Positions 544 to 14,198 of a stretch of 22,626 nucleotides of DNA are shown one piece after another. The position numbers and the translations under genes were made by a program. Source of the DNA: a virus; the IMG/VR virus record IMGVR_UViG_3300035670_001318, positions 1 through 22,626 of that record. One strand, given 5' to 3'. The notes under the pieces were generated by a model. It was given only the letters and a program-made list of their open reading frames with translations. It had not been told where the DNA came from and made no database searches. Every line of letters begins with the position of its first letter. Within the stretch, counting starts at the first letter, position 1.

Positions 544-548
544 GGGTG

Positions 549-576: not shown

Positions 577-616
577 GGCCTCGTTGATAGATACAACCCA
601 CAGAGAGGAACAAGTC

Positions 617-838: not shown

Positions 839-863
839 CCCATTCCACAGATAGGAGAGTCGT

Positions 864-1061
864 ATGAAAGCCCAACAAGCCAAGATGCTGGCCTCACAAT
901 CGGCCATGTATATGCACTACAGCCACAGCCACCAGCTCTGGCATCTGTACCACCTCGAGAACCTTAACCGCCCGGCTGAATACATCAGCCCTCGGCAGTT
1001 GCGCGAGTTTACGATCCCCGAGTTCCAGCGCCTGATTAAGCTGGTGCGAGGTGGCGTATGA
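864..1061 (+). CDS. Hypothetical early protein
   Basis: 65 residues with a strong ribosome binding site (ATAGGAGAG) just before the ATG at 864. The N-terminal half is rich in His, Tyr and Trp (MYMHYSHSHQLWHLYHLENL), followed by SPRQLREFTIPEFQRLIKLV, which looks like two short helices. I do not recognise it. Its TGA overlaps the ATG of the next gene (ATGA), so the two are translationally coupled. The His cluster could bind metal, but no recognised motif supports that. Confidence 0.7.
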   Translation: MKAQQAKMLASQSAMYMHYSHSHQLWHLYHLENLNRPAEYISPRQLREFTIPEFQRLIKLVRGGV

Positions 1062-1213
1062 ACATGGAAGCTGACCTGGCTTATGCCGTCGAGCGTCTGA
1101 TCCAGATGATCCTGCGCCTCGATCCTCAATGCCACCAGGCCGAGCTGTTGGCCGCGGGCCGCCTGCTGATGCAGTACGAGCAGGCCCGTCGAAATCAATC
1201 ACAAGCTGCTTGA
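1058..1213 (+). CDS. Small helical early protein
   Basis: 51 residues, MNMEADLAYAVERLIQMILR at the N terminus, then a second helix HQAELLAAGRLLMQYEQARR. It starts within the stop of the previous gene (ATGA), which supports real translation despite its size. Its own TGA (1211-1213) lies inside the -35 box of promoter P2 (1210-1215), so this gene closes the P1 proximal unit exactly where the second controlled promoter begins. The composition fits a small two-helix protein. Family and function are unknown. Confidence 0.6.
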   Translation: MNMEADLAYAVERLIQMILRLDPQCHQAELLAAGRLLMQYEQARRNQSQAA

Positions 1214-1237
1214 CACATCCGTTTAGATTGCTAAACT
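1210..1237 (+). promoter_or_regulatory. Early promoter P2
   Basis: TTGACA (1210-1215), a 16-nt spacer and TAAACT (1232-1237). Boxes and spacing are identical to P1. The expected start near 1244 leaves a short leader with AGGAG at 1259-1263 before the gene at 1273. It provides independent transcription of the recombination operon. Confidence 0.8.
1221..1236. promoter_or_regulatory. Operator at P2
   Basis: Perfect palindrome GTTTAG-ATTG-CTAAAC, differing from the P1 operator only in two central bases (AT for GC). It begins 5 nt after the -35 box, exactly as in P1, and its right half overlaps the -10 box. Confidence 0.75.
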
Positions 1238-1272
1238 ACAAACCGTTGACATACACAACAGGAGCAACAGAT

Positions 1273-1551
1273 ATGCGTAAAAACAATTTATTCTGCGCTT
1301 TTGGCGAGTTCTACGCCCTCGGTAACCGATTCGAGGCGCGCGTCGAATACAGCCAGGATCTCGAGGGCTTTGTCAGCCTTGAGGGTGCCGACATTATTGG
1401 CATCTATCTCGATGGCGATAAGAAGCCAACCACCCTCAACCATGACATTCAGATTGACCTGGATTGCATATCCGATGGTCAGCTCGAGAGCCTGCGCGAA
1501 TTAGCCGAGCAGGACGCCGAGCAAAGCGGCCCGTGGGATGACGGACGATGA
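1273..1551 (+). CDS. Hypothetical early protein
   Basis: 92 residues beginning MRKNNLFCAFGEFYALGNRF. The ATG at 1273 has AGGAG (1259-1263) upstream and lies downstream of the P2 start, so longer in-frame extensions reaching through the promoter are rejected. The first half reads as a small beta-sheet domain (FEARVEYSQDLEGFVSLEGA, IGIYLDGDKK). The second half is acidic and helical, ending AEQDAEQSGPWDDGR. The high acidity would suit a DNA-mimic or protein-binding role, but that is speculative. It is the first gene of the P2 unit and is coupled by ATGA to the next gene. Confidence 0.75.
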   Translation: MRKNNLFCAFGEFYALGNRFEARVEYSQDLEGFVSLEGADIIGIYLDGDKKPTTLNHDIQIDLDCISDGQLESLRELAEQDAEQSGPWDDGR

Positions 1552-1673
1552 GCCGCTCACCCTGGCCGCAATTTATCGGTTTGATCATTTTGTTTGCACT
1601 TGCCGCCATTAACGACCCTTGTGGTGACGGCGGCTGCACCCCACAAGAGGAGCGCGCAGCTCATGGACGATGA
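1548..1673 (+). CDS. Small single-pass membrane protein
   Basis: 41 residues: a short polar N terminus, a hydrophobic stretch QFIGLIILFALAAI (about 8-21) that could span the membrane or act as a signal anchor, then a Cys-containing tail DPCGDGGCTPQEERAAHGR. Two cysteines spaced by four residues sit just after the hydrophobic segment, on the predicted periplasmic side if it is a signal anchor. The start overlaps the previous stop (ATGA) and the 3' end overlaps the next gene by 11 bp, so the frame fits the packed operon. The function is unknown; a superinfection or host-membrane effector is possible. Confidence 0.55.
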   Translation: MSRSPWPQFIGLIILFALAAINDPCGDGGCTPQEERAAHGR

Positions 1674-1836
1674 CGATATGACCTGGTGGCATCAACAGGA
1701 TCTCGAGATGCAGGAACGTGAAGAACAAGAGCGCATAGAAGCCTGTAACAAGGCATTAGCAGAACTTGATGAAGCATTGGCGGCTCTCCGCGCCGCTCTC
1801 ACAGAACTAAAGGAAAACAACGATGAAGGTATATGA
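1663..1836 (+). CDS. Small acidic coiled-coil protein
   Basis: 57 residues starting MDDDDMTWWHQQDLEMQERE. The ATG at 1663 is chosen because AAGAGGAG (1645-1652) precedes it at good spacing; the frame is open further upstream but would overlap the previous gene heavily. From about residue 12 to 52 it is a continuous charged helix with heptad-like leucines (ACNKALAELDEALAALRAAL), so a coiled coil is likely. It overlaps the ERF gene start by 14 bp, implying co-translation. I do not recognise it; the linkage suggests a helper in the same process or simply an early-operon small protein. Confidence 0.7.
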   Translation: MDDDDMTWWHQQDLEMQEREEQERIEACNKALAELDEALAALRAALTELKENNDEGI

Positions 1837-2518
1837 AAAGATTGCGGCGGTCACCGCCGAGCTGTCCAAAATCGGAATCAGCAAGGAAAGCCAAAATCAT
1901 TCGCAGGGCTACGCTTTCCGCGGCATTGACCAAGTTTATGGTGCGCTGTCGCCGCTGCTGTCAAAGCACGGCCTTTGCATCTTGCCGCGCGTCAAGGATC
2001 GGCAAGTTATCGAGCGTCAGAATCGAGCAGGCACGGCGCTGTTCTACGTCACGCTGACTGTAGAGTTTGACTTCGTATCCGCCGAGGATGCCAGCAAGCA
2101 CACCGTGGTCACAATCGGTGAGGCGATGGACTCGGGCGACAAGGCCAGCAATAAGGCCATGTCTGCGGCTTACAAGTACGCCGCCTTTCAAGCGTTCTGC
2201 ATCCCGACCGAGGGCGATAATGACGCTGACGCCCAGACGCATGAGGTGGCTGCCAAACCCGCCTTTACGAATGATCCTCGAGGCGATCTAGGCAAAGAAT
2301 TTGACCCAGCGCGCCGTGACGAGCTTGTGAAAGAGTTTCGCGCGGCGTTTGACCTAGACGCCGAGGAGAAAGACATCGCCCTGGCGGTGCTGGCCGTCCA
2401 TGAGCGCGTCAATTCCGACCACGACCTGTATATCGCCGTCGCCGACGCCATGACGGCCAAGGAACGGTCAGCCATCAAGAAGTACATTCAAATAGCAAAG
2501 GAGCAAAACCGTGCCTGA
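1823..2518 (+). CDS. erf: ERF-family single-strand annealing protein
   Basis: 231 residues. The ERF core runs from about 1 to 131: MKVYEKIAAVTAELSKIGIS, SQGYAFRGIDQVYGALSPLL (28-47, the usual Y-x-FR-GIDDVY-type element), a beta region, and the hallmark block GEAMDSGDKASNKAMSAAYK through CIPTE (99-130). P22 Erf-type proteins form rings on single-stranded DNA and anneal complementary strands, repairing or circularising phage DNA. The C-terminal 100 residues are variable and charged, as in the family. AAGGAAAAC precedes the ATG at 1823. The next gene encodes a small protein with an SSB-like tip, and a NinB-like protein and nucleases follow, making a recombination cluster. Confidence 0.9.
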   Translation: MKVYEKIAAVTAELSKIGISKESQNHSQGYAFRGIDQVYGALSPLLSKHGLCILPRVKDRQVIERQNRAGTALFYVTLTVEFDFVSAEDASKHTVVTIGEAMDSGDKASNKAMSAAYKYAAFQAFCIPTEGDNDADAQTHEVAAKPAFTNDPRGDLGKEFDPARRDELVKEFRAAFDLDAEEKDIALAVLAVHERVNSDHDLYIAVADAMTAKERSAIKKYIQIAKEQNRA

Positions 2519-2798
2519 TTATGACCCGAACCAAAAAGGCGTTCTGTTCAAAAACAACGCCAAAGGTGACAACCCGAAGCGCCCCGACTACCGCGGCTCA
2601 TGCGTGATTGACAACGTAGATTTCAACATCTCCGCGTGGATCAAGACGAGCCAGAAAAGCGGCGATCGGTACATGAGCTTGAAGTTTGAGCCAAAGGGCG
2701 AAGGCAAACTTTCCCGCGGTGGCGAGCCGCAGCGCCAGGCCACCAAGAAGCCAGAAATCAACGAGGGGAATTGGGATGACCTGGACACCCCTTTCTGA
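2511..2798 (+). CDS. Small DNA-metabolism protein with SSB-like C-terminal tip
   Basis: 95 residues with a GTG start (2511) supported by AAAGGAG at 2497-2503 and an 8-bp overlap with the ERF gene. Residues 1-65 form a compact beta-rich domain (GVLFKNNAKGDNPKRPDYRG, NVDFNISAWIKTSQKSG, YMSLKFEPKG), reminiscent of small phage proteins near recombination genes (DUF736-like in flavour; I am not sure of the family). A basic linker follows, and the protein ends GNWDDLDTPF. Acidic-then-hydrophobic ...D-x-PF ends are the partner-recruiting tips of bacterial SSB proteins. Position behind an annealing protein fits a single-strand-DNA role (inference). The end overlaps the glycosyltransferase gene by 23 bp. 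Confidence 0.75.
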   Translation: MPDYDPNQKGVLFKNNAKGDNPKRPDYRGSCVIDNVDFNISAWIKTSQKSGDRYMSLKFEPKGEGKLSRGGEPQRQATKKPEINEGNWDDLDTPF

Positions 2799-3462
2799 TC
2801 TGCGGGTGTTTGTCGGGTGGGATAGCCGCGAGGACATCGCCTATCAGGTGTGTCGCAAGTCAATCTTGCGTCACGCCTCCATCCCGGTGGACATCCAGCC
2901 GATTAAACAGTCAGAGCTTCGTGAACATAATCTTTACTGGCGGGAGTTTGATCCGTTCTCGTCTACCGAGTTTAGTTTCACGCGGTTCCTGACGCCGTAT
3001 CTCGCCGGATACAACGGGTGGGCCGTTTTCGTTGATTGTGATTTTTTGTTTCGCGGCGACATCGCCGGGATATTGGATTACGTTGACGGAGCCAAGGCGG
3101 CCTTTCTTGTAAAACACGATTATCGGCCGACCGAAACCACGAAGATGGATGGTCAGGTACAAACTGTTTATCCCCGTAAAAACTGGTCGTCGTTTATGTT
3201 TATCAACTGCGGGCATGAGCAAGTCAAGGCTCTGACGCCCGAGGTGGTGAACCGTCGATCGGGAATGTATCTGCACCGCTTTGAGTGGCTGTCCGACGAT
3301 GTTATCGGTGAGCTGCCCATTAGCTGGAACTATCTCGAGGGCTGGCATACCCGCGACCAATGCCCGAACCCGATCGCCGTGCATTTCACCCGCGGTGGCC
3401 CCTGGTTCAAGGATTGGCAGGATGTCGAGTATGGCCGCGAGTGGCTTGAGGCCAGCCGGTGA
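2776..3462 (+). CDS. Glycosyltransferase (GT8-like, DxD)
   Basis: 228 residues. It opens with a Rossmann-like strand LRVFVGWDSREDIAYQVCRK (9-28). A DxD metal/nucleotide-sugar motif lies in GWAVFVDCDFLFRGD (81-95, D87-C-D89), and HFTRGGPW (203-210) resembles the late metal-binding His element of GT8-type retaining transferases. The family moves a sugar from a nucleotide donor onto a glycan, protein or DNA base. The ATG at 2776 has GAGGGG (2763-2768) at 7-nt spacing; longer upstream in-frame extensions overlap the previous gene and are not needed. It sits inside a recombination operon, an unusual location. It could modify phage DNA bases, the host surface or a virion protein; the sequence does not say which. 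Confidence 0.8.
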   Translation: MTWTPLSDLRVFVGWDSREDIAYQVCRKSILRHASIPVDIQPIKQSELREHNLYWREFDPFSSTEFSFTRFLTPYLAGYNGWAVFVDCDFLFRGDIAGILDYVDGAKAAFLVKHDYRPTETTKMDGQVQTVYPRKNWSSFMFINCGHEQVKALTPEVVNRRSGMYLHRFEWLSDDVIGELPISWNYLEGWHTRDQCPNPIAVHFTRGGPWFKDWQDVEYGREWLEASR

Positions 3463-3872
3463 AGCGGATCTTCCCCAAGGGAACCACAGAGCCGCAGATG
3501 GTGGCAGCGGTGGCGCGCATGGTGCAGGGGCTTGACCCTGCCCGTGTGTGGTCTATTGAAGTAACCGAGTGGAAAAAACCGAAAACCAATCAGCAGTCGC
3601 GGTATCTCTTTGGAGTGGTCTATCCCATGATCATGGAGGCGGCGGGCGAGAGCTTAAGAGGCTTCACTCGAGACGATCTACACGACTTTTTCTTGGGGGA
3701 GATCTGGGGGTGGGAGACGATAGAAGGGTTTGGCAGAAAACGTCTGCGGCCCTTAAAACGAACATCCCGCATGACCAAGCAAGAATTCACCGAGTACCTG
3801 TACGGCATTGAGAACAAGTGCATTGAGATGGGAATTGGCCCGTTACCCGAGCCGATTCACGTTGAGGATTAA
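3459..3872 (+). CDS. NinB/Orf-like recombination mediator
   Basis: 137 residues from a GTG start overlapping the previous stop (GTGA), with GAGG at 3448-3451. The layout resembles lambda Orf/NinB: an early strand WSIEVTEWKKPKTNQQSRYL (31-50, the family's R/N-x-QN-x-x-L-type segment), a helical middle (YPMIMEAAGE, DDLHDFFLGEIWGW), and the late block RTSRMTKQEFTEYLYGIENK (101-120) like the family's TS-x-M-x-x-x-EF element. Lambda Orf (146 aa) binds single-stranded DNA and helps load annealing protein. Placement two genes after ERF supports the call. The similarity is motif-level, so a related uncharacterised family is possible. Confidence 0.6.
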   Translation: MKRIFPKGTTEPQMVAAVARMVQGLDPARVWSIEVTEWKKPKTNQQSRYLFGVVYPMIMEAAGESLRGFTRDDLHDFFLGEIWGWETIEGFGRKRLRPLKRTSRMTKQEFTEYLYGIENKCIEMGIGPLPEPIHVED

Positions 3873-3874
3873 CA

Positions 3875-4438
3875 ATGCCCTTCTCCATCATCGTGCCGCG
3901 ATTCGTTATTGATGAAAGCTGGCGGTTTACCAAGAAAATTAAGATGGGACACCGCAACGATGGGAGCGATGGCAACGCAGAACAACAGCTCGTTGGGGTG
4001 ATCGGCCAAAACATGGTCAACCTGGCGCTGTGCAAACCCTTGATGGAACATGACACCGGGTTTGATGGTGGCGTGGACTTTGAGGCTTTTGGGATGCGGT
4101 TTGACGTTAAGACGATGGGCCGCACTAGCGAGCCAAAGCCGAGTTACGTCAACAACCTGTTGCGATCACAGATCAAATTCAACTGTGATGCGTACCTGTT
4201 TTTGAGCTTCAACAAAACTAACAGCGAGCTGACGTTCTGCGGGTGGATCACCAAGGAATCGTTCCTATACCGCGCTACGGTGTACCACAAAGACACGGTT
4301 CGAGAGCGTAGCGATGGCTCGTCGTTCAAGCTAAAAGCCGATACGTTTGAGATTGAGAACCGACAACTTAATCAAGATTTCGCCAACTGGCCGGAATTGG
4401 TAGCCAGCTGGCATAACTACGCAACGGAGCTGTTATGA
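3875..4438 (+). CDS. PD-(D/E)XK-like nuclease candidate
   Basis: 187 residues; start 3 nt after the previous stop. The N-terminal half shows a restriction-fold pattern: helix GNAEQQLVGVIGQNMVNLAL (33-52) with E36, then FDGGVDFEAFGMRFDVKTMG (63-82), where D68 and D77-V-K79 match the D-x(n)-(D/E)-x-K catalytic arrangement of PD-(D/E)XK nucleases. Later strands (CDAYLFLSFNKT, LTFCGWITKE) fit the core sheet. Such proteins cut DNA in recombination, repair or host takeover. Neighbours (NinB-like, DUF1364) fit a resolvase or repair role. No family name is recognised; the call is from motif and context only. Confidence 0.6.
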   Translation: MPFSIIVPRFVIDESWRFTKKIKMGHRNDGSDGNAEQQLVGVIGQNMVNLALCKPLMEHDTGFDGGVDFEAFGMRFDVKTMGRTSEPKPSYVNNLLRSQIKFNCDAYLFLSFNKTNSELTFCGWITKESFLYRATVYHKDTVRERSDGSSFKLKADTFEIENRQLNQDFANWPELVASWHNYATELL

Positions 4439-4719
4439 CGTTACGCAAACAAGCCAGAGGTCGAGCTTGCATGGTGCGCCTCGAGGGCATATGCAACCAC
4501 AATTCCGAAACGGTAGTGCTGGCCCACATAAGATTATCAGGGGTTAGCGGCATGGGATTGAAGGCTGACGATGCTTTAGGCGCCTGGGCGTGTTCCGCTT
4601 GCCATGACGCCGTAGACCGGCGCTCACATACCGACCGCGATCCGTTTAACGTGCGCCTTGCTCACCTTGAGGGCATGGTGCGAACCATTGCACAACTACG
4701 CAAAGAGGGATTGATATGA
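4435..4719 (+). CDS. DUF1364 HNH-like phage protein
   Basis: 94 residues with the pattern of DUF1364: LRKQARGRACMVRLEGICNH (3-22), SETVVLAHIRLSGVSGMGLK (24-43), then AWACSACHDAVDRRSH (50-65). C12, C20, H31, C53, C56 and H57 are the likely zinc and active-site residues; the family is viewed as HNH-nuclease-like and is common in lambdoid ninR-type regions. It starts on the ATGA overlap with the previous stop. The length is typical. A role in DNA processing with the neighbouring NinB-like and nuclease genes is likely, but its substrate is not known to me. Confidence 0.85.
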   Translation: MTLRKQARGRACMVRLEGICNHNSETVVLAHIRLSGVSGMGLKADDALGAWACSACHDAVDRRSHTDRDPFNVRLAHLEGMVRTIAQLRKEGLI

Positions 4720-4734
4720 CCCGCGACGACATCA
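4716..4734 (+). repeat. 19-bp direct repeat, copy 1
   Basis: ATGACCCGCGACGACATCA, spanning the ATGA stop/start overlap and the codons MTRDDI. The identical copy is at 4916-4934, with a 200-bp period. Confidence 0.85.
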
Positions 4735-4919
4735 CAATGCCAATTGACGGATTAGTTATCAAACAGCCCGAGTATGACTGCCCTACGCACGGAACCGTTG
4801 TTAGCACTATTACATTTAGCCGTGCTGATACCGGAACCATGCGGCGGTTCTGCATGGAATGTTGCTTTGACAAAATGGTTGAGATTGGCGTGTGCGAAGT
4901 GACGGAGAAGAAGCCATGA
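4716..4919 (+). CDS. Small zinc-ribbon-like protein
   Basis: 67 residues, MTRDDITMPIDGLVIKQPEY at the N terminus, then CPTHG (22-26) and CMECC (46-50), giving a C-x2-H...C-x2-C pattern that would bind one zinc. It starts inside the previous stop (ATGA) and ends with an ATGA overlap onto the next gene. The first 19 nt are identical to the start of the next gene exactly 200 bp downstream. Family not recognised; zinc ribbons of this size usually mediate nucleic-acid or protein binding. Confidence 0.7.
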   Translation: MTRDDITMPIDGLVIKQPEYDCPTHGTVVSTITFSRADTGTMRRFCMECCFDKMVEIGVCEVTEKKP

Positions 4920-4934
4920 CCCGCGACGACATCA
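4916..4934 (+). repeat. 19-bp direct repeat, copy 2
   Basis: Identical to 4716-4734 and at the same position relative to a start codon and stop overlap. The downstream coding sequences of the two genes are unrelated, so only the start region is shared. Confidence 0.85.
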
Positions 4935-5134
4935 TCCGACTGGCGCGAGAAGCGTTAAAACACGATCCTGGCTTTGCAGCGTGGACGTTATCCACGCCGC
5001 ATTTAGAAATAATTGTGAACATGGCAATAAAAATTGAGCGAGAAGCGTGTGCCAAAGTCGCTGAAGCCTACGAACCGCGCTGTGATACCTGCCCAAGCGG
5101 TGTAGCGACCGCCATCCGTGCGAGGGGCGCATGA
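4916..5134 (+). CDS. Conserved small phage protein (EREACAKV type)
   Basis: 72 residues: MTRDDIIRLAREALKHDPGF at the N terminus, a middle helix LEIIVNMAIKIEREACAKVA (30-49), and a tail CDTCPSGVATAIRARGA. Small proteins with an N-terminal MTR-x-DI-I-x-x-AREA, a central EREACAKV and a C-terminal AIRARG are common in phages and prophages of proteobacteria. I know no established function. It starts on an ATGA overlap and hands over to the next gene through another ATGA. Confidence 0.75.
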   Translation: MTRDDIIRLAREALKHDPGFAAWTLSTPHLEIIVNMAIKIEREACAKVAEAYEPRCDTCPSGVATAIRARGA

Positions 5135-5682
5135 GCTTTATGGTGGATACGCCGTACACCACGGCCTACATACGAAACGAGTTCTTATATGACCAAGAGC
5201 AGGGCCACGGAGACTTCACGCTGGCTACCGTCCTAGGCTTCAGAGCGGAGCCAATGCGCGTCCCCATGTTCAGCGTCATGCTCGAGTGTGGCGCTATGTG
5301 GGCAAGGATGCCCATACACGCGATCTGCTCCAAGCCCTGCGACCCGCTACCGCTCGACATCTGCGTGTGGTGGGACAGCTTTAGCCGGTTCTGCGAAGTG
5401 CGCGAAATGCAGTTCCTGCGTAACCACCGCGTGAAAGCAATCGGGCGAGATGGCGTCCAGCGTCCTGGCGTGTACCAGTTTTCGGTGTTCTGGGCCAACG
5501 GTGGATGGTCAGAGATCCCCGACCAGAGCAAAGATCATCACATCATCGCGTTAGATTCCGGCCAATGGATCGCATACCCGAACAATCGCCTGTTGTGGGT
5601 AGATCCGTCGCATATTCGAGGGGAAGTCCCTCGAGGCTGGAAGTCACCCTCGAGCAACTACAGCGTGGAGGCTTTGCCATGA
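5131..5682 (+). CDS. Hypothetical early protein
   Basis: 183 residues with no domain I recognise. It is rich in aromatic residues (ICVWWDSFSRFCEVREMQFL, GVYQFSVFWANGGWSEIPDQ, DSGQWIAYPNNRLLWVDPSH), which suggests a compact beta-sheet protein. Five cysteines are spread through it without a zinc pattern. Translation starts on the ATGA overlap at 5131 and ends in ATGA with the next gene, so it is a real member of the early operon. It has no signal peptide or clear membrane segment. Confidence 0.7.
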   Translation: MSFMVDTPYTTAYIRNEFLYDQEQGHGDFTLATVLGFRAEPMRVPMFSVMLECGAMWARMPIHAICSKPCDPLPLDICVWWDSFSRFCEVREMQFLRNHRVKAIGRDGVQRPGVYQFSVFWANGGWSEIPDQSKDHHIIALDSGQWIAYPNNRLLWVDPSHIRGEVPRGWKSPSSNYSVEALP

Positions 5683-5792
5683 GATGGCTTATTGACCTAT
5701 GGCGTAAACTCAAGGCTAACCGTGACCGTGAATGGCGCTCTGTGCCATATCCAAACTGGCGCTGCTCACGCGGAGGGCGAGACATATGGTGA
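5679..5792 (+). CDS. Tiny basic protein
   Basis: 37 residues, MRWLIDLWRKLKANRDREWR then SVPYPNWRCSRGGRDIW. It is strongly basic and Trp-rich with an amphipathic N-terminal helix. Evidence for translation is the ATGA overlap with the preceding gene and the overlap of its end with the next start. It could bind nucleic acid or membrane surfaces, but nothing specific is recognisable. Confidence 0.5.
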   Translation: MRWLIDLWRKLKANRDREWRSVPYPNWRCSRGGRDIW

Positions 5793-5953
5793 ACGACGAA
5801 GATGAAGCATTTGAGCTGGAGCTAAAAGCCGCTCCCTGGGGTTACGGGCAACCCATCGACATCTGGTTTGTCATCGCCCAGCTACAGCGCCACGGCCTTC
5901 ACAGAGAGGCTAAATGGCTGCTCGAGGAGTGGGAGATCCTGACCCTCAAATAA
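5786..5953 (+). CDS. Small acidic protein
   Basis: 55 residues, MVNDEDEAFELELKAAPWGY at the N terminus and a helical C-terminal half DIWFVIAQLQRHGLHREAKW. ATG 5786 is preferred over GTG 5789 because GGAGG (5772-5776) is 9 nt upstream; both starts overlap the preceding stop. It is the last protein gene of the early operon and ends 4 bp before the tRNA. Unknown family. Confidence 0.6.
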   Translation: MVNDEDEAFELELKAAPWGYGQPIDIWFVIAQLQRHGLHREAKWLLEEWEILTLK

Positions 5954-5957
5954 CGGG

Positions 5958-6031
5958 TGACGGGTCGTCTAATGGCAGGACACAGGGTTTTGATCCCTGT
6001 TATCTAGGTTCGAGTCCTAGCCCGTCAGCCA
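5958..6031 (+). tRNA. tRNA-Gln (TTG), CCA encoded
   Basis: A complete 74-nt cloverleaf. The acceptor stem is TGACGGG/CCCGTCA. The D-stem is GTCT/GGAC. The anticodon stem is CAGGG/CCCTG with loop TTTTGAT, so the anticodon is TTG (reads CAA, and CAG by wobble). The T-arm is CTAGG-TTCGAGT-CCTAG. Discriminator G and encoded CCA are at 6028-6031. It lies 4 bp after the last early gene and is probably processed from the early transcript. Its 3' 32 bp overlap the endolysin gene on the other strand. A tRNA 3' end is also a classic integration target, but no integrase is present in the window. Confidence 0.95.
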
Positions 6032-6985: not shown

Positions 6986-7395
6986 TTGCTTGCCCTCACT
7001 ACGTCATCGCCCTTGGTGACGGTCACATGATCGCCCTCAACGTCTACTCGCATGGGCTGCTCTTTGCGATCCAACCGATCTAGTTTGGCGATGAGTTCCT
7101 TAATAACCTCAAACTCGGGCTTTTCTTCCTTTTCCACCGTGCCTGCGATGCTGGCGAGCATGGAAATGAGAGCGGTCAGCGAGGCGCCGAGCAAACCCAT
7201 CACAGCGGCGATCTTGTCGCTATCCAGCGCAAGGCTAGATAACACACCAATCACCACGATCGCTGTAATGTATTTTAGGCCGTCCTTGCCGATAGCCTTA
7301 CCCGCGACATCCTTGGCGCTGCTGTGAGCCTCTAGGCGCTGCAATTCGGCCTGTATCTGTACCTTTAGCAATTGGATGTCGGTAGGTTCGGTCAT
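6982..7395 (-). CDS. Two-pass membrane protein of the lysis region
   Basis: 137 residues with a helical, charged N terminus (1-38), two hydrophobic segments (about 41-57, KYITAIVVIGVLSSLAL; 62-85, IAAVMGLLGASLTALISMLA) and a charged C terminus (VEKEEKPEFEVIKELIAKLD). The termini should lie on the same side of the membrane. ATGA-type overlaps link it to genes on both sides. It may be a second holin, a holin regulator or an antiholin; family not recognised. Confidence 0.6.
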   Translation of the reverse strand: MTEPTDIQLLKVQIQAELQRLEAHSSAKDVAGKAIGKDGLKYITAIVVIGVLSSLALDSDKIAAVMGLLGASLTALISMLASIAGTVEKEEKPEFEVIKELIAKLDRLDRKEQPMRVDVEGDHVTVTKGDDVVRASK

Positions 7396-7586
7396 TGCTG
7401 CAACGCCTGCAAGAGCAACATTCCCATGCTGCCGAGTGCGCCAAGGAGGATGAGGATAATTGCGCCGCCTACCTTCAACATGAGCTGCTCAAGGCGCTTC
7501 AGTCGCGCATGGATCGCCTCGTAACGCACCGCGCAAACATCAATGTGGCTCGTCACGGTCGTCTCTAGCTCTTGCACCGTCGTCAT
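7392..7586 (-). CDS. XhlA-like small membrane protein
   Basis: 64 residues: an N-terminal coiled-coil-like helix (MTTVQELETTVTSHIDVCAV, then RYEAIHARLKRLEQLMLK) followed by one membrane segment (39-60, VGGAIILILLGALGSMGMLL). This helix-plus-C-terminal-TM layout resembles the haemolysin XhlA family, which works with XhlB-type holins. The ATG at 7586 has GAGGAAA upstream at normal spacing; the frame is open for 23 more codons but that extension overlaps the preceding gene. It ends in an overlap with the 137-residue membrane protein. Confidence 0.65.
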   Translation of the reverse strand: MTTVQELETTVTSHIDVCAVRYEAIHARLKRLEQLMLKVGGAIILILLGALGSMGMLLLQALQQ

Positions 7587-7735
7587 TGCTTCGTTTCCTC
7601 TACCTTCGGCACTTGCAACTCGGCCTGTTCCTTGATTTTCAACATTAGCGGCCAAGCGCCTACCTTGGTCGGCAGGTCGCCCAGCACTTGCAGGATGGCG
7701 TTCACTTCCTCAACGGATAGTTCCAACTTAATCAT
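7583..7735 (-). CDS. Conserved small phage protein
   Basis: 50 residues, MIKLELSVEEVNAILQVLGD then LPTKVGAWPLMLKIKEQAEL. Small proteins with this pattern (KLEL-x-V-x-EVN-x-IL-x-x-LG-x-LP, then KIKEQAE) are frequent in phage tail/lysis regions and have no established function that I know. The gene is linked by overlaps on both sides: it begins in the stop of the preceding gene and its TGA overlaps the ATG of the XhlA-like gene. Confidence 0.75.
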   Translation of the reverse strand: MIKLELSVEEVNAILQVLGDLPTKVGAWPLMLKIKEQAELQVPKVEETKQ

Positions 7736-8046
7736 TCTGCGCTCCACGGCAGCGGCTTGGCGACGGTCGGCGGGTTAACGAGCATATCCAACTCACGCGC
7801 TACGTTCGCCTCTACAGCGTCCTTGTCCACGCCGTTTGCCCACACCCAGCCCAGCACATCGGCTTCGGTTAGGTCGGGATACGCCACGAAGTTATCGCCC
7901 GGCGAGGCAAAGCCCATGCTGCCGTAGTTGGATGCCGTCTTATCGCCATCGCTGGCCGAGCAACGGTAGGCAGCGGTCACCACAACGTCGGTGTGCGAGC
8001 CGTCTTGCGGCTTAACGATCATGCTTTCAATTTTCCAAGTAGCCAT
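7732..8046 (-). CDS. DUF7936-like tail-region protein
   Basis: 104 residues, beginning MATWKIESMIVKPQDGSHTD, with the later block DLTEADVLGWVWANGVDKDA (58-77). Proteins starting MATW-x-IE with a two-strand repeat (VVVTAAYRCSASDGD) and ending in LTE-x-x-VLGWVW...VDK are common just downstream of fibre genes in podovirus-like phages; I place it in the DUF7936 type from memory. GGAGG precedes the ATG at 8046. It is probably a virion or assembly component; no enzymatic motif is seen. Confidence 0.65.
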   Translation of the reverse strand: MATWKIESMIVKPQDGSHTDVVVTAAYRCSASDGDKTASNYGSMGFASPGDNFVAYPDLTEADVLGWVWANGVDKDAVEANVARELDMLVNPPTVAKPLPWSAE

Positions 8047-8062
8047 TTAAGCCTCCATTAAA

Positions 8063-10552
8063 TTACGGGCCAGCATCACGCCACTGACCAGTTGAATAGA
8101 AATACAGTTTGTTGTTGGTCGTATCTACGACAATCGGTGCCATGCCGGTGATTGCAGTCGGTGTGCCGGTCGGCGTACCCGCGCAAGTCGGGACATACAA
8201 GAATCCATCTGTGGCGGTGGTGGCGAGGGCTGCGCTGGCTCCTGCGACGATGTTACCGGCAGCGGTAATACGCATCCGTTCGGTGCTTGCCGAATAAAAT
8301 GCAAGTGCTTGATCGGTAATAATGTTTGACAGCCCGCTTTGATGCCCAACCCAAAGCGTTGAGTTAATGCCGTCTGAAGTTCGGAACGAATAATTTTGAC
8401 CGCCAGATGCATAGTATTTAATTACCGACAATCCGGCTTGAGTTGATGCGCTTGTTGTGCCTATTCCGGTATAGCCCGCAAAATAATTATCCGCCGTCCC
8501 GTTTGCATAGAAGTTCCAGCGGTTAGAGCCAGAGGCGATGTTGCTGTAGAAGCCGAAGTTGTTGGTGGCTTCTGTTAAACCGCTTGACGCAAAAAATCCG
8601 TACTGATTGCCAATGGTTGAACCAGCGCCTTTTGCAACCGGATTAGCATAAAAGTGCAACTGGTCAGTCAATGTAAAGGATGCTGCCGCCGTACTAAAGT
8701 TGGACAGAAATCCGTATGCAGCAGACGTTGATCCGCTAGGGCTTGTCCCGCTGCTTGCAATTCCAATAGATGTATTGCTGCTTGTCGGCAAGGTTCCTTT
8801 AATTTGTGTTTTGACGTCCGCATCCGCCGTCCCGCCGATCCCGACGTTGCCGGAGGAGTCAATGCGCATCCGTTCGGTGTAAGTTGTGCCGTCAGACACT
8901 GATATTTGACCAAACGTCATCGCCGCATCTGATGGCGCAAAAGACCGGAAATCCCCCGACTGAACGCCAAAACCTGCTTTTGAATTGCTGCTGCGGAAAA
9001 CAAACAACTTTTGAGCGGTAACGTCGGTGCCTAAATCTAGTTTTGCTCCCGGCGAGGTTGCGCCAATACCGACGTTGCCAGCAAAGTAATTGTCAGCCGT
9101 ACCCGCCATATATACGTTATAGCGGTTGGTACCAGATGCTATGTTTCCGTAGAAACCATAGTTGTTGGTGGCTCCGGTGAGGTTACCGTTAGCAAGAAAA
9201 CCGTACTGATTTGTTACAGTTGACCCTGCGCCAAAAGTATCTTGATTTGTTCTGTAATGAACCAAATCCGATAGGGTAAATGATGCGGCTTGCGTTGAAG
9301 GAAAAGTGTTAAACATCGCCGCAAGCGTAACTGTTCCGCTTGGTATAGTGCCTTTTTGCGCCAAACCGATAGAGAATCCTAAATTTGTAGGATATGTGCC
9401 AAGTACATCAATTTTGGTTTCAGCCCCCGGCGTCCCGCCAATTCCGACATTGCCCGACGTATCGCTAATAACAATCGCCGCCGTGCCGTCTTTTGCTTTG
9501 ACGTTGGTGACTTCTACGTTGGTAGCGTCTACGGTGGTGGCGTTGACGTTTGTAATATTTGCCGTAACGCCGTTCATGGACGCAATAGATGCGCCGGTAA
9601 CGGTCAGCCCTGTTACCACAGCCGTGCCGACGTTAGCCGACGCCACACTAGCTCCGGTCGCCGTCAGCGTTGTTACCGTGCCTGTGGTGATAAGCGCCAC
9701 GCCGACGTTGGCAGAGGCGACCGAGGCACTAGTGGCGGTCAGATTGGTGACGGTGCCGTTGGTGACAACCGCTGTGCCGACGTTGGCCGAGGTGATGGAC
9801 GCACCGGCTGCGCTCAAGTCGGTTATAACCGCCACAGCCGCGTTTGCGGAGGCGGTAGAGACGGTGGGCAGGTCTGACTTGCCCGTAACCGCGAGGGTGC
9901 TACCGAGCGTTGCAGCGCCCGTCACGGCAAACGTGCCGCCGACTGATAGCGCCGAGGTGACCGACACATTGGCTTGCAGGCCGGTGTTGCCCGTAACCGT
10001 CAAGGTGCCGTTGATCGTCGTGTTGCCGAACGAGTTGGCGGCATTGATCATCTGAAAGCGGGTGCCGTCGTAAATCACAACGACAATCTCGCCCGAATTG
10101 ATGTCGCCAGCGGCCAGCGCCGTGCTGCCGTCGCGGGTAATGGCTTTGGCTCCAAGGCCGTCCACGTTCAGCGTCACCGCGCCTGTGTTTGCGCCACCAG
10201 CCACAAAGTAGAACAACTGACCCGCAGCGTAGGCGGTCAGAGTGGGCGACATCGTGCCGAGAACGGTGTCGGTGCCAGTAATGGAGATGAGCTTGGCGAC
10301 GGTGGACTGCACTTGCCCGAGGTTGGCGGCGTCCCCGATCAGCGTACCGTTAGCAAGGCCGGTGATCTTGTTGCTGCCCATCGGGATGTTGGCCGTAGGC
10401 GTGGACTGACCGTCCTTGGTGATGCAGTTCGTTAAGCCCGAGGCAAGGTCTGCCGTCAGGGCGTTAAAGACCGTCGCCGAAATGACGGTGTTGGCAACAA
10501 CGGGCTGACCCGTTGAGTTGATGAGAAATGTGCCGGAACCGTTGAAAGACAT
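8063..10552 (-). CDS. Modular tail fibre / receptor-binding protein
   Basis: 829 residues. The N terminus (1-180) holds small beta domains typical of phage fibres, with GQLFYFVAGGANTGAVTLNV and GEIVVVIYDGTRFQMINAAN. Residues 180-360 are low-complexity Thr/Ala/Val triple-helix-like repeats (for example ASVASANVGTAVVTGLTVTG). Residues 366-497 and 567-697 are two copies of a module starting SGNVGIGGT and containing DNYFAG. The protein ends TTNNKLYFYSTGQWRDAGP, a frequent fibre C terminus. There is no S74 chaperone here; that domain sits in the Gln-rich protein instead. Thr/Ala-rich repeats indicate a trimeric beta-helical shaft. CGAGGT precedes the ATG. It is the most likely host-range determinant. 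Confidence 0.85.
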   Translation of the reverse strand: MSFNGSGTFLINSTGQPVVANTVISATVFNALTADLASGLTNCITKDGQSTPTANIPMGSNKITGLANGTLIGDAANLGQVQSTVAKLISITGTDTVLGTMSPTLTAYAAGQLFYFVAGGANTGAVTLNVDGLGAKAITRDGSTALAAGDINSGEIVVVIYDGTRFQMINAANSFGNTTINGTLTVTGNTGLQANVSVTSALSVGGTFAVTGAATLGSTLAVTGKSDLPTVSTASANAAVAVITDLSAAGASITSANVGTAVVTNGTVTNLTATSASVASANVGVALITTGTVTTLTATGASVASANVGTAVVTGLTVTGASIASMNGVTANITNVNATTVDATNVEVTNVKAKDGTAAIVISDTSGNVGIGGTPGAETKIDVLGTYPTNLGFSIGLAQKGTIPSGTVTLAAMFNTFPSTQAASFTLSDLVHYRTNQDTFGAGSTVTNQYGFLANGNLTGATNNYGFYGNIASGTNRYNVYMAGTADNYFAGNVGIGATSPGAKLDLGTDVTAQKLFVFRSSNSKAGFGVQSGDFRSFAPSDAAMTFGQISVSDGTTYTERMRIDSSGNVGIGGTADADVKTQIKGTLPTSSNTSIGIASSGTSPSGSTSAAYGFLSNFSTAAASFTLTDQLHFYANPVAKGAGSTIGNQYGFFASSGLTEATNNFGFYSNIASGSNRWNFYANGTADNYFAGYTGIGTTSASTQAGLSVIKYYASGGQNYSFRTSDGINSTLWVGHQSGLSNIITDQALAFYSASTERMRITAAGNIVAGASAALATTATDGFLYVPTCAGTPTGTPTAITGMAPIVVDTTNNKLYFYSTGQWRDAGP
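8462..8854 (-). repeat. Fibre module, copy B
   Basis: Encodes fibre residues 567-697, the diverged duplicate of copy A, separated from it by about 70 residues containing TERMRIDSSGNVGIGG. Confidence 0.75.
9062..9457 (-). repeat. Fibre module, copy A
   Basis: Encodes fibre residues 366-497. It shares with copy B the series SGNVGIGGT, a GT-x-PS-x-T loop, AASFTL(S/T)D, GAGST(V/I)-x-NQYGF, ATNN-x-GFY and TADNYFAG. Confidence 0.75.
9593..9805 (-). repeat. Intragenic fibre repeats, 20-26 residues
   Basis: Fibre residues 250-320 contain three consecutive degenerate units of the form AS(I/V)-x-SANVG-x-A-(V/L)-(I/V)-T, followed by TVT-x-LTAT. They probably extend the shaft, and may vary in copy number by slippage. 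Confidence 0.7.
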
Positions 10553-10595: not shown

Positions 10596-12296
10596 TTAAA
10601 AGGCTCCAAGCGTGGTTGCAAATGGCGTCGGACGTTCTTCCTCTCCGTAGATGCCAGCACCTGCTCGTAATGCCACAACCAATGCGTCACGCTCTTTTTG
10701 CGATAGTTTGCGCTTAAACTTTTCTTCAAATTCCTGGATTTTTCTTTGAACTGGCAAGCCGCCCGTCATTAGTTGGCGCGCCAATTGAGATCCCTTTGAC
10801 TCGCCGTAAAGCGGATACGTTAAACCGCCCATGACATAGCCAGCGAGCTGACTTGGCGATTGCCTGCCAGTTTGCGGTTGTCTGTTTGTGAAGGTTTCCG
10901 ACGCTTCCATCGAAATATCACGCATTGGGCCACCGCCCCTGGCGTACTTGCCCTTTGACTGCGTTGCTTCACGAACTTCTAACGCAAATTGAGAAGGCGT
11001 AAACCCTTCCGGCCTATTTGTTGCGCGATAAACCGCGTTCTCTACAACCTTTTTATTGACATACTTGGCATCAATTGCTCGCAAAGCGGCGCTTACATCT
11101 GGTGGAAGCTGCGACTCTAACGCTTCAGTAATTTTGCTTTCGGCGTTTTCTAGCAAGTCGTCAGCTTCGTACAGGTTTGCGTTCGGATTTTTACGCAAGT
11201 CACGAATCTTGGATCTGACTCTTGATCGTAAATCTAACAAGTCATCGCTATTAACGTAACCGTTACCCGCTTTGGCTTGCTTAACAAGCCTTGACATTTC
11301 GTCATCCAAAAACTTGTTGACGTAATTACGCGACGGCCCTTTAACCGGCGCATTTGGCGGCACTACTAATGCGGTTCGGAGTGGTTGATTGCCGCCTTGC
11401 GTTCTAACAATTGACAGCTGAATTTTTGGAAATCCTTTGGCAACGTCATACGCTTGACTGTATGCGTTTTCCAAATCTTCCATCATTTCTTGGACGCTTT
11501 CTTTTGGCGTAATCTTAAATCCTGGGGGAGCTGCCTCTTGCGCGATAACGCCCTGGGTTTCTCGCCAACCTTGCGCCCGAGCCTTGGATACTCGCGCACC
11601 AAAGCCAGGAATGCCCATCATGGCTTCTTCAATCATTGCCCAATTGCTTTCTGGATCTGCCTGCCCTGGCGTTAAGGTCACGCCGCGGCGGGACAAATTT
11701 CGCGCTGCGTCAGTTGTATCAACACCGCGAGCAAACAGATTGTATGCGCCGCCAATGGTCGGAACGGCCAACGATGTTCCAGCGCCAAAAAACGCGCCTT
11801 CCTTGCGCTGTCCTGGGCCGGCTGTAATTGCGCCAGATAAACCGCCTTCTGTAATTGCTCGAGTAACTGGGCCGCCATATCCCAAAAATTCAAGGCCAGC
11901 TGCGCCGGTTCGACCAATCGGGCCAAGGAACGGAGTTAATGCGGCAGTTTCGCCGATGAACTCGCCTGTAGCGCCTGCTGGGCCTTGCGTAAACGGGACG
12001 TTTCGCTCAAGTCGCTCGGTGGCCTTTTCGGTCGGCACAATGCCCGCCATTTCACCTACGTTGGTGATGACGTTTTGAGTGCCTGCGCCTACGCCCATCA
12101 ATGCGCGAACCAGCGGATTAACCTCACCGCCAATCGTGCCGGTTTTGGGGTCGTACATACGCGCTTGCGGCGTTCCACTTGGAAGCGAAACCGGCGTAGA
12201 CGCGGTATGCGTCATTGCAAGCTCCGTGGCTCGCCGCTGTTCTTCTTCAAAACGCTTTTTGAAGCGTTCGATTTCTTCTGGCGTAAAATCGTCCAT
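10596..12296 (-). CDS. Putative internal virion / ejection protein
   Basis: 566 residues, starting MDDFTPEEIERFKKRFEEEQ. The ATG at 12296 overlaps the preceding stop (TAATG) and has AAAGGGGG upstream. Residues 50-190 are rich in Gly/Ala and hydrophobics (GEFIGETAALTPFLGPIGRT, GAFFGAGTSLAVPTIGGAYN), suggesting membrane-active segments. The rest is a long charged helical region (SRVRSKIRDLRKNPNANLYE, KITEALESQLPPDVSAALRA). Large helical proteins of this type between tail hub and fibre genes in short-tailed phages are usually carried in the capsid and ejected to form a channel for DNA (known for T7 and P22; inferred here). No lytic enzyme motif is seen. Its base composition is more AT-rich than the flanking genes. 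Confidence 0.6.
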   Translation of the reverse strand: MDDFTPEEIERFKKRFEEEQRRATELAMTHTASTPVSLPSGTPQARMYDPKTGTIGGEVNPLVRALMGVGAGTQNVITNVGEMAGIVPTEKATERLERNVPFTQGPAGATGEFIGETAALTPFLGPIGRTGAAGLEFLGYGGPVTRAITEGGLSGAITAGPGQRKEGAFFGAGTSLAVPTIGGAYNLFARGVDTTDAARNLSRRGVTLTPGQADPESNWAMIEEAMMGIPGFGARVSKARAQGWRETQGVIAQEAAPPGFKITPKESVQEMMEDLENAYSQAYDVAKGFPKIQLSIVRTQGGNQPLRTALVVPPNAPVKGPSRNYVNKFLDDEMSRLVKQAKAGNGYVNSDDLLDLRSRVRSKIRDLRKNPNANLYEADDLLENAESKITEALESQLPPDVSAALRAIDAKYVNKKVVENAVYRATNRPEGFTPSQFALEVREATQSKGKYARGGGPMRDISMEASETFTNRQPQTGRQSPSQLAGYVMGGLTYPLYGESKGSQLARQLMTGGLPVQRKIQEFEEKFKRKLSQKERDALVVALRAGAGIYGEEERPTPFATTLGAF

Positions 12297-13546
12297 TAAC
12301 GCCCCCTTTGGCTTCGCAGCCAACGCTGATAACGAACTTCATCGTCATCAATCTTTTTATACGGAATCAAAGAATCTTTGAATGTTGATTTATAGTCATC
12401 AATCAACGAATCATATTCGTCAATCACTTCAAGCTGTTTACCGCGAATAATGTTACCAATTGCTACGCGCGCTTGCGGGCTGTTGATAATTTGCGGGAAC
12501 ATTTGCATCAAGATTGCAGTTTCTTCTTTAGTAAATCCGCGAGCGCCGCCCAAGGCTGCTTGCGCTGCCATTACCAAATCACTTACCTGCGCGTTAAACG
12601 CTTCTGTGTTACTTAAAGTTTCTGGGGCAATCTTCAAACCGATGCTATTTAAGAATTGACCTGCGCCAACTGCGGTTGGAGCAAGAGATCCTGTAAACGT
12701 GCCTTTTTGCGTCAACCGATCCAGGTTGTTCACAGCGCGAATGATATTGGTAGCTGCATAAGCCCTCGGGCGCATACTTCCAATTTCTTTCAAGATAATT
12801 TCTTGACCAACTAGGCTTCCTTTATCGCCAAGATCAATTTTGAACGGAGGTTGCGTCGTCGTTTCCTTGGAAATCGCAGCATCCCAAATGGCAATACGCG
12901 GATCGCCTGGCTTGAATTGATCGCGCTCGCTGACCAATTTCATTAGCGAACTGCCTGCCGCGGGCTTGGGTGCTGCAGTTACAGGTTTGCCGCCCATAGT
13001 GACGGGCGTAGCAACGCCATCCGTAACATTTAACAGTTGATCGCCAAATTCCATCGTTTGCGGTTTTGGCTGACGAGACAACATCAGCTCTGCATAACGC
13101 TGCGCGCGCGGGCCGCCCGTTGCCATTGCTTGAACAAGGCGATCTTCGCGCTCTTGCGGAGTTGGCATCACCGTCTGGGTGACAGGCGGAGTGTATTTGC
13201 CGGCCATCTCCATTGGATCGCCGAACATATCGGGGCCGGTGACTTGGGTCTGCGGGCCAAGGTCACGGCGCAACGCCTCAAACTCGGCCACATCGGCTTC
13301 ACGGGCCTTGCGCTCGGCTTCCTCTGCCTTCTCTCCAATCTTCTTGGACGTATAGGCCGACAAGATGCGGGCCAGGGCGTTTGTTGGCGTCGGCATCGCA
13401 CGGAACCCCTGGTAAGTCGGCGACTCCGGCTCTTGCATAAAAGCCTGTTGGCGGAGGACTTCGGCTAGTTGCTGCTGACGCTGCGCCCGCAGCATCTCCT
13501 CCTCATACGGCGACGGTGCGCGAAATACAGGACTAATCTTGGCCAT
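12296..13546 (-). CDS. Putative internal virion protein
   Basis: 416 residues starting MAKISPVFRAPSPYEEEMLR. ATG 13546 is preferred over the upstream TTG because AGGAG lies 9 nt before it. Residues 15-100 are a charged helix, 100-190 a Pro-rich low-complexity part (PPVTQTVMPTPQEREDRLVQ), and 200-416 a helical domain with GSLVGQEIILKEIGSMRPRA, ARGFTKEETAILMQMFPQII and IRGKQLEVIDEYDSLIDDYK. I do not recognise a family. Position next to the other large helical protein suggests a second ejection protein. The part encoding the C-terminal domain is strongly AT-rich while the 5' part is GC-rich, which points to a recombination junction within the gene. Confidence 0.6.
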   Translation of the reverse strand: MAKISPVFRAPSPYEEEMLRAQRQQQLAEVLRQQAFMQEPESPTYQGFRAMPTPTNALARILSAYTSKKIGEKAEEAERKAREADVAEFEALRRDLGPQTQVTGPDMFGDPMEMAGKYTPPVTQTVMPTPQEREDRLVQAMATGGPRAQRYAELMLSRQPKPQTMEFGDQLLNVTDGVATPVTMGGKPVTAAPKPAAGSSLMKLVSERDQFKPGDPRIAIWDAAISKETTTQPPFKIDLGDKGSLVGQEIILKEIGSMRPRAYAATNIIRAVNNLDRLTQKGTFTGSLAPTAVGAGQFLNSIGLKIAPETLSNTEAFNAQVSDLVMAAQAALGGARGFTKEETAILMQMFPQIINSPQARVAIGNIIRGKQLEVIDEYDSLIDDYKSTFKDSLIPYKKIDDDEVRYQRWLRSQRGR

Positions 13547-13940
13547 AGTCAAAATCTCCTCGGTAACCGCCTCCCTGCGGGGTCGTCAAACCCGGCGACG
13601 AGGGCATACGCGGTCGAGATCCCATGCCGCCCACCTGCGGCGAACGCCCCATCAAGCCACCCGCTCGAGGCATTCCCATTTGCGGCCTGCTCATGCCCAT
13701 CTGCGGGCGCCCGGTCGGCATACCCGGCTGCGGTGACGTCATGGGGCCGTTGAAGTTCATTGCCTGCGGCGGCACACCTGGCGCTGCGTTAGGCGTCGGC
13801 TGCGAGAAAGCCAGGCCAGGCACTTGGCGCATGGCCATATCACGCTGCCCCGGCGGCGCGCCGAGGGACGTATTGCGCTCCTGCGCTGCCAGCATCTGTG
13901 CAAGCTGTTGCGGCCTGCGATCGGGTGAGTATCCGTTCAT
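13533..13940 (-). CDS. Pro/Gly/Met-rich low-complexity virion protein
   Basis: 135 residues. After a short helix (RRPQQLAQMLAAQERN, 8-23) it is disordered, Pro/Gly/Met-rich, with short tandem elements RPQMGMSRPQMGMPRAGG (about 78-95). It overlaps the preceding small gene by ATGA and the next by 14 bp. Stop is TAG at 13533-13535. It is probably a linker or internal component of the ejection apparatus; the function is unknown. Confidence 0.65.
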   Translation of the reverse strand: MNGYSPDRRPQQLAQMLAAQERNTSLGAPPGQRDMAMRQVPGLAFSQPTPNAAPGVPPQAMNFNGPMTSPQPGMPTGRPQMGMSRPQMGMPRAGGLMGRSPQVGGMGSRPRMPSSPGLTTPQGGGYRGDFDYGQD

Positions 13941-14197
13941 GCTAAACCGCCTGTGTTGAATGGCGTGGTGGTGCTATATGTGCGTTTTCCGACGTTTTGC
14001 GCGTTTCGCGCCGTTTGTCGGTTCATCATTTCGCGCATCTTCAGCAGATCTTGCGGGTCAACTGATGCTGACGGCGTTGCCATCATCGGAATCGCTGCGT
14101 AATCGGTGTTGACCGCTTGGTTGGCCTCCTGCATCGCCAACATCTGCGCGAGCTTCTGTGCGTCGGTGCGATCTTTGTACGTTTTGAAGTACGGCAT
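13937..14197 (-). CDS. Small helical virion-associated protein
   Basis: 86 residues, MPYFKTYKDRTDAQKLAQML at the N terminus. The segment LAQMLAMQEAN resembles LAQMLAAQERN in the following gene, suggesting duplication of a short docking helix. The middle is MATPSASVDPQDLLKMREMM, with a polar C terminus. It starts 1 nt after the stop of the Gln-rich gene and ends by ATGA overlap. No family recognised. Confidence 0.65.
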   Translation of the reverse strand: MPYFKTYKDRTDAQKLAQMLAMQEANQAVNTDYAAIPMMATPSASVDPQDLLKMREMMNRQTARNAQNVGKRTYSTTTPFNTGGLA

Positions 14198-14198
14198 A

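Follow-up and report, generated by a model that had tools for sequence, protein, structure and literature searches.

A lineage-wide excess of CTCGAG in freshwater phages, and early phage genes linked to the loss of other short palindromes

The window analysed here is the whole of a linear IMG/VR virus record (IMGVR_UViG_3300035670_001318; 22,626 bases), and its early genes carry the palindrome CTCGAG far more often than expected. The excess belongs to a freshwater phage lineage as a whole, in which CTCGAG stands about sixfold above expectation. In the same phages and their relatives, three small early genes each go together with the almost complete disappearance of a single short palindrome from the carrier genomes, an association of which we are fairly confident: CTNAG for homologues of the window gene at 3875-4438 (3875-type genes), TCGA for a gene we call c24, and AGCT for a gene we call c100. 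We propose, tentatively, that the early-gene content of these phages would determine where CTCGAG can exist, and that a process on the host side might then raise its frequency.

Results

CTCGAG in the window

CTCGAG occurs 16 times in the window as exact matches. The sequence-only reading had listed 12 positions in the first 6 kb and four further copies beyond it; all 12 positions proved exact and the later four are present (Table 1). By count, CTCGAG ranks first among all hexamers in positions 1-6000, and none of 100 dinucleotide shuffles of the window reached 16 copies (largest 10). Roughly 1.5 early copies had originally been expected; Markov models of order 1, 2 and 3 give 1.33, 1.22 and 2.78 for this region. 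The estimate of about eight copies for the other NTCGAG hexamers was correct (ATCGAG 2, GTCGAG 3 and TTCGAG 3 on the plus strand). A near match to the window was not found in the annotated phage collection.

Codon usage was ruled out as the source of the excess by shuffling synonymous codons in the 16 early genes. These shuffles gave a mean of 1.89 copies and a maximum of 7, and none of 2000 reached the 12 observed. As first read, eight of the 12 sites encode Leu-Glu, two Pro-Arg, one Thr-Arg and one Pro-Ser-Ser; by frame (0, 1 and 2) the early genes contain 8, 3 and 1 copies against 1.32, 0.43 and 0.14 in the shuffles. Eight of the 13 Leu-Glu pairs are written CTCGAG, while CTC makes up 21 of 134 Leu codons. 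Because the excess is similar in all three frames, it acts on the DNA and not on the protein. That codon choice is insufficient is also borne out by a shuffle that additionally forbids 45 avoided motif classes (expectation 2.03; 0 of 150 reach 12) and by three related loci, L162, L170 and L001, with 15, 17 and 13 copies against 4.67, 3.50 and 2.83, independent of frame and with none of 400 shuffles reaching the count in each.

Confinement to the early region, as claimed at the outset, holds for this window in that the late genes contain four copies against 2.61 in synonymous shuffles, which is no excess. It fails in two respects. Even in the TCGA-poor late region (6031-22626), 4 of the 13 TCGA lie within CTCGAG, against an expectation of about 5% (P 3e-3), and relatives carry CTCGAG on the opposite arm, including the terminase.

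CTCGAG across relatives

Relatives were fetched by scans with Erf, amidase, TerL and phrog_3704, taking at most the best 80 loci from each. The counting unit is the locus, numbered with an L, and loci are not independent genomes, as some share a contig (e.g. L005/L162, L002/L244, L133/L254/L414 and L463/L608). Bacterial loci (L319-L412) were excluded from the phage counts, and lineages were judged by percent identity, without a tree.

The CTCGAG content of the relatives is bimodal. All 12 loci of the top TerL clade (98-100% identity, L161-L172) are rich, with 4-18 copies each in 4-13 kb, and these copies lie on the arm that the window does not cover. The remaining 68 of the best 80 TerL loci (83-88% identity) have 0 or 1 copy, and many are without any TCGA; L199, for example, has none against 70 expected. 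Three groups were hand-picked from the longer loci, some of which share a contig. Pooled, the ten rich loci contain 144 CTCGAG against 27.8 expected (z 22, the top of all hexamers; the next has 13.6), the ten TCGA-free loci contain no TCGA against 644 expected, and the third group, of eight loci, has nearly lost AGCT (4 against 402). Related phages thus show the enrichment, the absence of which the sequence-only reading would have taken as a refutation.

Judged by identity, the rich state does not appear to be confined to one clade. It is also seen in L137/L139 (TerL 77%) and L421/L422 (TerL 31%), while the TCGA-free L199 and the AGCT-free L210 are nearer to the clade of the window (TerL 84-85%) than those rich loci. 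Rich genomes are mosaics in which some blocks are devoid of TCGA, and the TCGA-free stretch of the window (Table 1) is probably a block from a TCGA-free lineage. CCWGG and CGATCG are enriched 1.84-fold and 2.3-fold over expectation in L162, L166, L170, L167 and window positions 1-6000, and are nearly missing from the sister groups; these enriched allowed sites stay below the level of CTCGAG.

How CTCGAG sites arise

At orthologous positions, TCGA-free relatives have CTTGAG, CTGGAA, CGCGAG, CGCGTG or CTAGGG, among others, each separated from CTCGAG by at least one and at times several substitutions. With bases this varied, no single mutation type makes the sites. Rich blocks hold 93 CTCGAG in 60,571 bases, about 1500 per million, and most of the other non-palindromic contexts of TCGA occur there about as often as expected. 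An independent-flank model around TCGA predicts 82 copies, close enough to the 93 seen that a preference for the TCGAG half-site is not cleanly separable from a preference for the palindrome.

The sites are also gained in late blocks. In the amidase scan, 56 of the best 80 loci are without TCGA and 22 have it at up to 0.7 of expected; in these 22, CTCGAG makes up 45 of 175 TCGA, where about 5% is expected. The gain is genuine and specific to this lineage, not a general route of regaining TCGA.

Gene 3875-4438 and the loss of CTNAG

A k-mer screen showed that carriers of 3875-type genes are nearly devoid of CTNAG, with 12 copies against 2010 expected in 76 loci; background Erf relatives have 0.62 of expected. 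The loss extends to distant homologues: CTNAG is found 0 times against 160 in L430-L436 (about 55% identity, GC 0.6), 9 against 838 in L437-L467 (51-55% identity, mostly GC ~0.4; L467 is of the main group) and 0 against 68 in L468-L469 (37-39% identity, GC 0.3). The sharpest comparison comes from the GC-0.4 group, in which the control set was defined by the gene adjoining the 3875-type gene there. Eleven carriers (8 contigs) have 2 CTNAG against 545, and 73 non-carriers have 1677 against 2637, with a lowest ratio of 0.26. Among slot loci of the main group, 25 carriers have 2 against 623 expected.

By state, the gene is present in 13 rich, 6 intermediate and 0 TCGA-free loci, a tally whose rich set leaves out, by name, ten loci from other lineages. 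L415-L418 are TCGA-free carriers of a 3875-type gene, and the gene is missing from the rich loci L248 and L249. The protein has the motif D64-G-G-x-D68...D77-V-K79, and searches returned no Pfam, NCBIfam, PADLOC or PDB match and no significant PHROG match. The copy at L247:2315-2818, on a CTCGAG-rich contig, has lost about 20 residues, the D...DVK motif among them, through an in-frame deletion, and is apparently inactivated.

In the window the gene lies between NinB and YbcO and has no methyltransferase as a neighbour. The GC-0.6 carriers likewise have no CTNAG; six of these seven match an N6/N4 methyltransferase family, whose member in L430 lies close to the gene (Table 1). The 3875-type gene of these carriers may be, or derive from, one half of a restriction-modification pair. 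Fifty further carrier records, many of them fragments, contain PF01555 in 8, PF00145 in 7 and PF02086 in 0.

c24 and c100

c24 (158 residues, e.g. L260:8188-8664, motif D-I...I-E-V-K) occupies an early slot of TCGA-free phages, between the counterparts of window genes 2511-2798 and 2776-3462, and is missing from the window. At this slot, 76 carriers have 6 TCGA against 3204 expected, and 56 non-carriers 1051 against 1954. As with the other genes, many non-carrier loci are fragments, and the gene could sit elsewhere in the genome. The highest ratios among c24 carriers are 2/20 (L255) and, outside the slot set, 2/15 (L004). No slot locus has both c24 and a 3875-type gene. L415-L418 are without AGCT as well as TCGA, and may contain further genes of this type.

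c100 (162 residues, e.g. L307:4387-4875, motif P-D-V-G...E-V-R-R) is located between NinB and YbcO, in the slot that gene 3875-4438 fills in the window. Its 79 carrier loci contain a single AGCT against 2261 expected (48 loci 0 against 1717; 31 more distant loci 1 against 544). Among slot loci, 28 carriers have 0 against 909, and 144 non-carriers have 0.40 of expected. The distant carriers L518-L548 also have 1 CCWGG against 621 expected; this is another purge, perhaps with another gene.

None of the three families gave a convincing family or PDB match: PDB profile searches returned nothing for two and chance matches (E 0.34 or worse) for the third. Two have D...(D/E)xK-like motifs and the third E-V-R-R. 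Taken together, the purges, the motifs and the use of a common slot point to putative site-specific endonucleases, and it is probable that all three are PD-(D/E)xK-like nucleases whose own sites have been purged.

Search for a driver of the excess

Methyltransferase families were sought in 50 records of relatives, most of them fragments. D12 methyltransferases (PF02086) were in none, N6/N4 methyltransferases (PF01555) in two, both TCGA-free phages, and C5 methyltransferases (PF00145) in nine (8 over the cut-off), in all states; neither of the latter two families follows CTCGAG. A C5 cytosine methyltransferase (L002:5189-6514) lies in the control region adjoining Erf in some relatives. It was rejected as the driver, being found in CTCGAG-rich, TCGA-free and intermediate phages alike. 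Among the open reading frames of ten loci, a gene common to all rich lineages and restricted to them was not found. The host could not be named through Erf relatives in named genomes, which are too distant. A literature search by title or abstract start, covering neither subscription journals nor preprints, found neither a CTCGAG excess in phages nor site purges tied to phage nucleases.

Gene map of the window

The features of the window, together with one methyltransferase of a relative, are collected in Table 1. The labels SSB and GT used during the work for the genes at 2511-2798 and 2776-3462 are provisional only.

Table 1. Coordinates of CTCGAG sites and of the genes discussed (window positions unless a locus is given)
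Feature	Position	Strand	Basis or remark
CTCGAG-rich block	954..5926	n/a	Exact matches; synonymous shuffle 0/2000
CTCGAG copies in the rich block	954, 1360, 1483, 1702, 2277, 3334, 3667, 4480, 5281, 5630, 5649, 5921		Exact matches
Four late-region CTCGAG copies	11858, 13664, 14233, 16984 (span 11858..16989)		Exact matches
Erf-like single-strand annealing protein	1823..2518	+	phrog_155, E 1.6e-33; query for fetching relatives
Overlapping gene pair 2511-2798 and 2776-3462	2511..3462	+	2776-3462 is phrog_28018, a family of unknown function
NinB/Orf-like recombination mediator	3459..3872	+	phrog_72, E 3.2e-12
187-residue gene whose carriers are nearly without CTNAG; putative site-specific endonuclease	3875..4438	+	Motif and CTNAG loss
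YbcO-family putative nuclease; bounds the 3875 slot on the right	4435..4719	+	PF07102, E 3.7e-35
Conserved early protein phrog_3704	5131..5682	+	Contains three CTCGAG in three different frames
tRNA-Gln (TTG); closes the rightward early genes	5958..6031	+	
TCGA-free stretch	7001..10000		Three 1-kb bins with zero TCGA; resembles TCGA-free relatives
N6/N4 DNA methyltransferase	L430:10721-12064		About 1.1 kb from the 3875-type gene

Discussion

We propose an explanation in two layers which, taken as a whole, we rate at somewhat below an even chance. In the first layer, early-gene content would set which relatives can hold CTCGAG. TCGA is purged in step with c24, so CTCGAG cannot occur in the TCGA-free sister phages. 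The window lineage is without c24, and TCGA is therefore allowed; it mostly holds the 3875-4438-type gene, whose carriers are purged of CTNAG. The purge-linked genes would be putative endonucleases directed against host or competing DNA, their own sites having been lost by selection. In the second layer, where TCGA is allowed, CTCGAG would be raised about sixfold, in every frame and through several different substitutions, by a host-side process resembling that of HIP1, the highly iterated palindrome (HIP) of cyanobacteria, at a host-methylated site. A host-side cause seems the most likely, because no testable phage gene tracks the excess and because the excess recurs in lineages that are not nearest to one another. 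Host methylation in particular is a possible cause, and we advance it with reserve. As an association, the first layer has good support; the second was reached by elimination.

On a broader reading, these freshwater phages would have interchangeable early-operon slots for putative endonucleases (the 3875-4438 family for CTNAG, c24 for TCGA and c100 for AGCT), often without a methyltransferase, that serve as weapons against host and rival DNA and whose targets are purged genome-wide. The CTCGAG excess would be the counter-image of this in a lineage that has no TCGA member, shaped by a host-side HIP-like process. We consider this reading about evenly balanced, leaning slightly towards acceptance. 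It is weakened because 15 of the 50 further carrier records contain a DNA methyltransferase gene, with none seen in the other 35.

Several further observations weigh against these proposals. On the side of the purges, L415-L418 are TCGA-free without c24 and carry a 3875-type gene instead, and together with L274 they are the exceptions to the pairing of c24 with TCGA loss. L448, with a 52%-identity homologue, retains 8 CTNAG against 12 expected, which is 8 of the 12 copies found among all carriers. No AGCT is found in 33 of the 144 slot loci without c100. The nuclease reading is based on motifs spotted by eye, and structure models of the 3875 protein and of c24 are poor (AlphaFold2 pLDDT 44 and 40).

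On the side of the CTCGAG excess, a maximal-order Markov model expects 11.1 copies in positions 1-6000, because the pentamers CTCGA and TCGAG are themselves in excess; the idea that a null model would fall short of 12 thus stands for the synonymous shuffle and Markov orders 1-3 and not for this model, in which the hexamer is not separable from its pentamers. Half-sites are mildly high in rich blocks. Retention of CTCGAG between members (0.61/0.76/0.81) is ordinary beside that of the average hexamer (0.55/0.72/0.82). In the amidase loci, 43 of the 45 CTCGAG fall in 6 of the 22, and the other 16 have 2 among 75 TCGA. Those six are TCGA-poor blocks in which CTCGAG makes up 35-50% of TCGA with P down to 7e-7, values that are biased because the blocks had been chosen as CTCGAG-rich. 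A matching signature in candidate host genomes, which the sequence-only reading had proposed to look for, did not appear: CTCGAG, paired with its reversed control, was counted in 25, 299 and 398 bacterial genomes (some shared), and none reaches about 1.5 per kb. The densest, Nocardioides with 1.3 among them, have about 1.3 per kb, and those sampled are GC-rich. Thirteen other genomes were fetched, one of which was counted only; among the 12 that were ranked (GC 0.64-0.73) the best rank of CTCGAG among hexamers is 17.

Among the alternatives, the strongest is that a DNA-binding protein of the phage or of the host recognises CTCGAG, for genome organisation, for transcription or at a recombination hot spot, and that the site is selected at about one per 650 bases. 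An excess that is independent of frame and present on both arms would fit. We nonetheless consider it unlikely, since the search of open reading frames yielded no gene common and restricted to the rich lineages, the flanks of 66 CTCGAG sites show no strong extended consensus, and half-sites are also raised.

A second alternative concerns the purges: the carriers might infect hosts whose restriction systems recognise CTNAG, TCGA or AGCT, which would leave the phage genes as bystanders. These phages have also purged many sites for which no phage gene is known, and 147 main-group loci without a 3875-type gene are likewise poor in CTNAG (542 of 4530 expected, or 0.12; 42 of the 147 have none), for which reason the contrast between carriers and non-carriers is weaker there. 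Set against this, homologues in phages of GC ~0.30, 0.40, 0.55 and 0.62 show the same purge, the genes around the GC-0.6 copy hardly recur in other groups and those around the GC-0.4 copies do so only in part, and GC-0.4 relatives without the gene show no purge. We regard the bystander account as rather improbable.

We take a similarly low view of a bias of very-short-patch-like repair or deamination that interconverts CTTGAG and CTCGAG. Room for such a bias is left by CTTGAG/CTCAAG being the commonest alternative state, at 185 of 521 (states that are non-independent), a point that also tells against our own proposal. CTTGAG is not depleted in rich blocks (42 against 29.5), and many sites align with CGCGAG, CGCGTG, CTGGAA or CTAGGG, which require other substitutions. 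More doubtful still is the notion that CTCGAG is a protected version of TCGA or an uncut decoy, directed at the TCGA-linked protein that sister phages would bring into a co-infection. TCGA-free blocks within rich genomes do suggest exchange with such phages, but the near-expected frequency of most other TCGA contexts in rich blocks gives little sign of attack, and protection would account for tolerance and not for excess. Lastly, that CTCGAG is merely what remains once dozens of restriction sites are forbidden is hardly credible: the early genes (617-5953) do contain 1 copy of the 45 avoided motif classes (e.g. CACGAG, CTNAG, CASTG, GGWCC, CTCTTC and GAAGAC, a list drawn from the same lineage with the window included) against 94.8 in synonymous shuffles, but forbidding these motifs scarcely moved the expectation for CTCGAG.

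If the two-layer explanation is right, part of the site avoidance seen in phages would be explained without host restriction. The side result may be the larger one: a missing short site would reveal what the product of an unannotated phage gene recognises, and enzyme specificities would be predictable from sequence alone.

Comparison with known systems

The sites purged here are those of well-known Type II restriction endonucleases, DdeI (CTNAG), TaqI (TCGA) and AluI (AGCT). The inferred target sites of the three phage families match these enzymes, and two of the families have D...(D/E)xK-like motifs. Unlike them, the putative nucleases are phage-carried, have no PDB or family match by sequence and, in the window lineage, lack an adjoining methyltransferase, though the GC-0.6 carriers do have one, of the N6/N4 type, near the gene. 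The absence of short recognition sites from phage genomes is likewise the theme of the portions of PMC6286503 considered here, which pair phages with host-encoded restriction endonucleases. In our phages the CTNAG, TCGA and AGCT purges follow phage genes, and CTCGAG, being in excess, is the reverse of avoidance.

The closest parallel to the excess is with HIP1 (GCGATCGC) and the alternate HIPs of cyanobacteria. In the sections of PMC4390886 drawn on here, these have a density of 1000-2000 per million, a cognate methyltransferase and a motif that varies by lineage. CTCGAG resembles them in being a short palindrome far over expectation (144 against 27.8, the top hexamer), in its density of about 1500 per million and in that the motif differs between lineages. 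It differs in occurring in a phage, with no methyltransferase gene that tracks the motif, and CTCGAG does not occur in the main text of PMC4390886. HIP1 deviations, as described there, fall on the outer bases, whereas those of CTCGAG are mostly at the central CG (185 of 521), which also counts against our proposal. The HIP1-like signature suggested by the sequence-only reading is thus upheld in density and palindromy and not in the cognate methyltransferase or the outer-base deviations, and because these last two features are both wanting we call the excess HIP-like rather than a HIP. The origin of HIP1-type motifs is treated as unsettled in those sections of PMC4390886, and an iterated palindrome in a phage whose close relatives are nearly empty of it offers a natural experiment on how such motifs originate.

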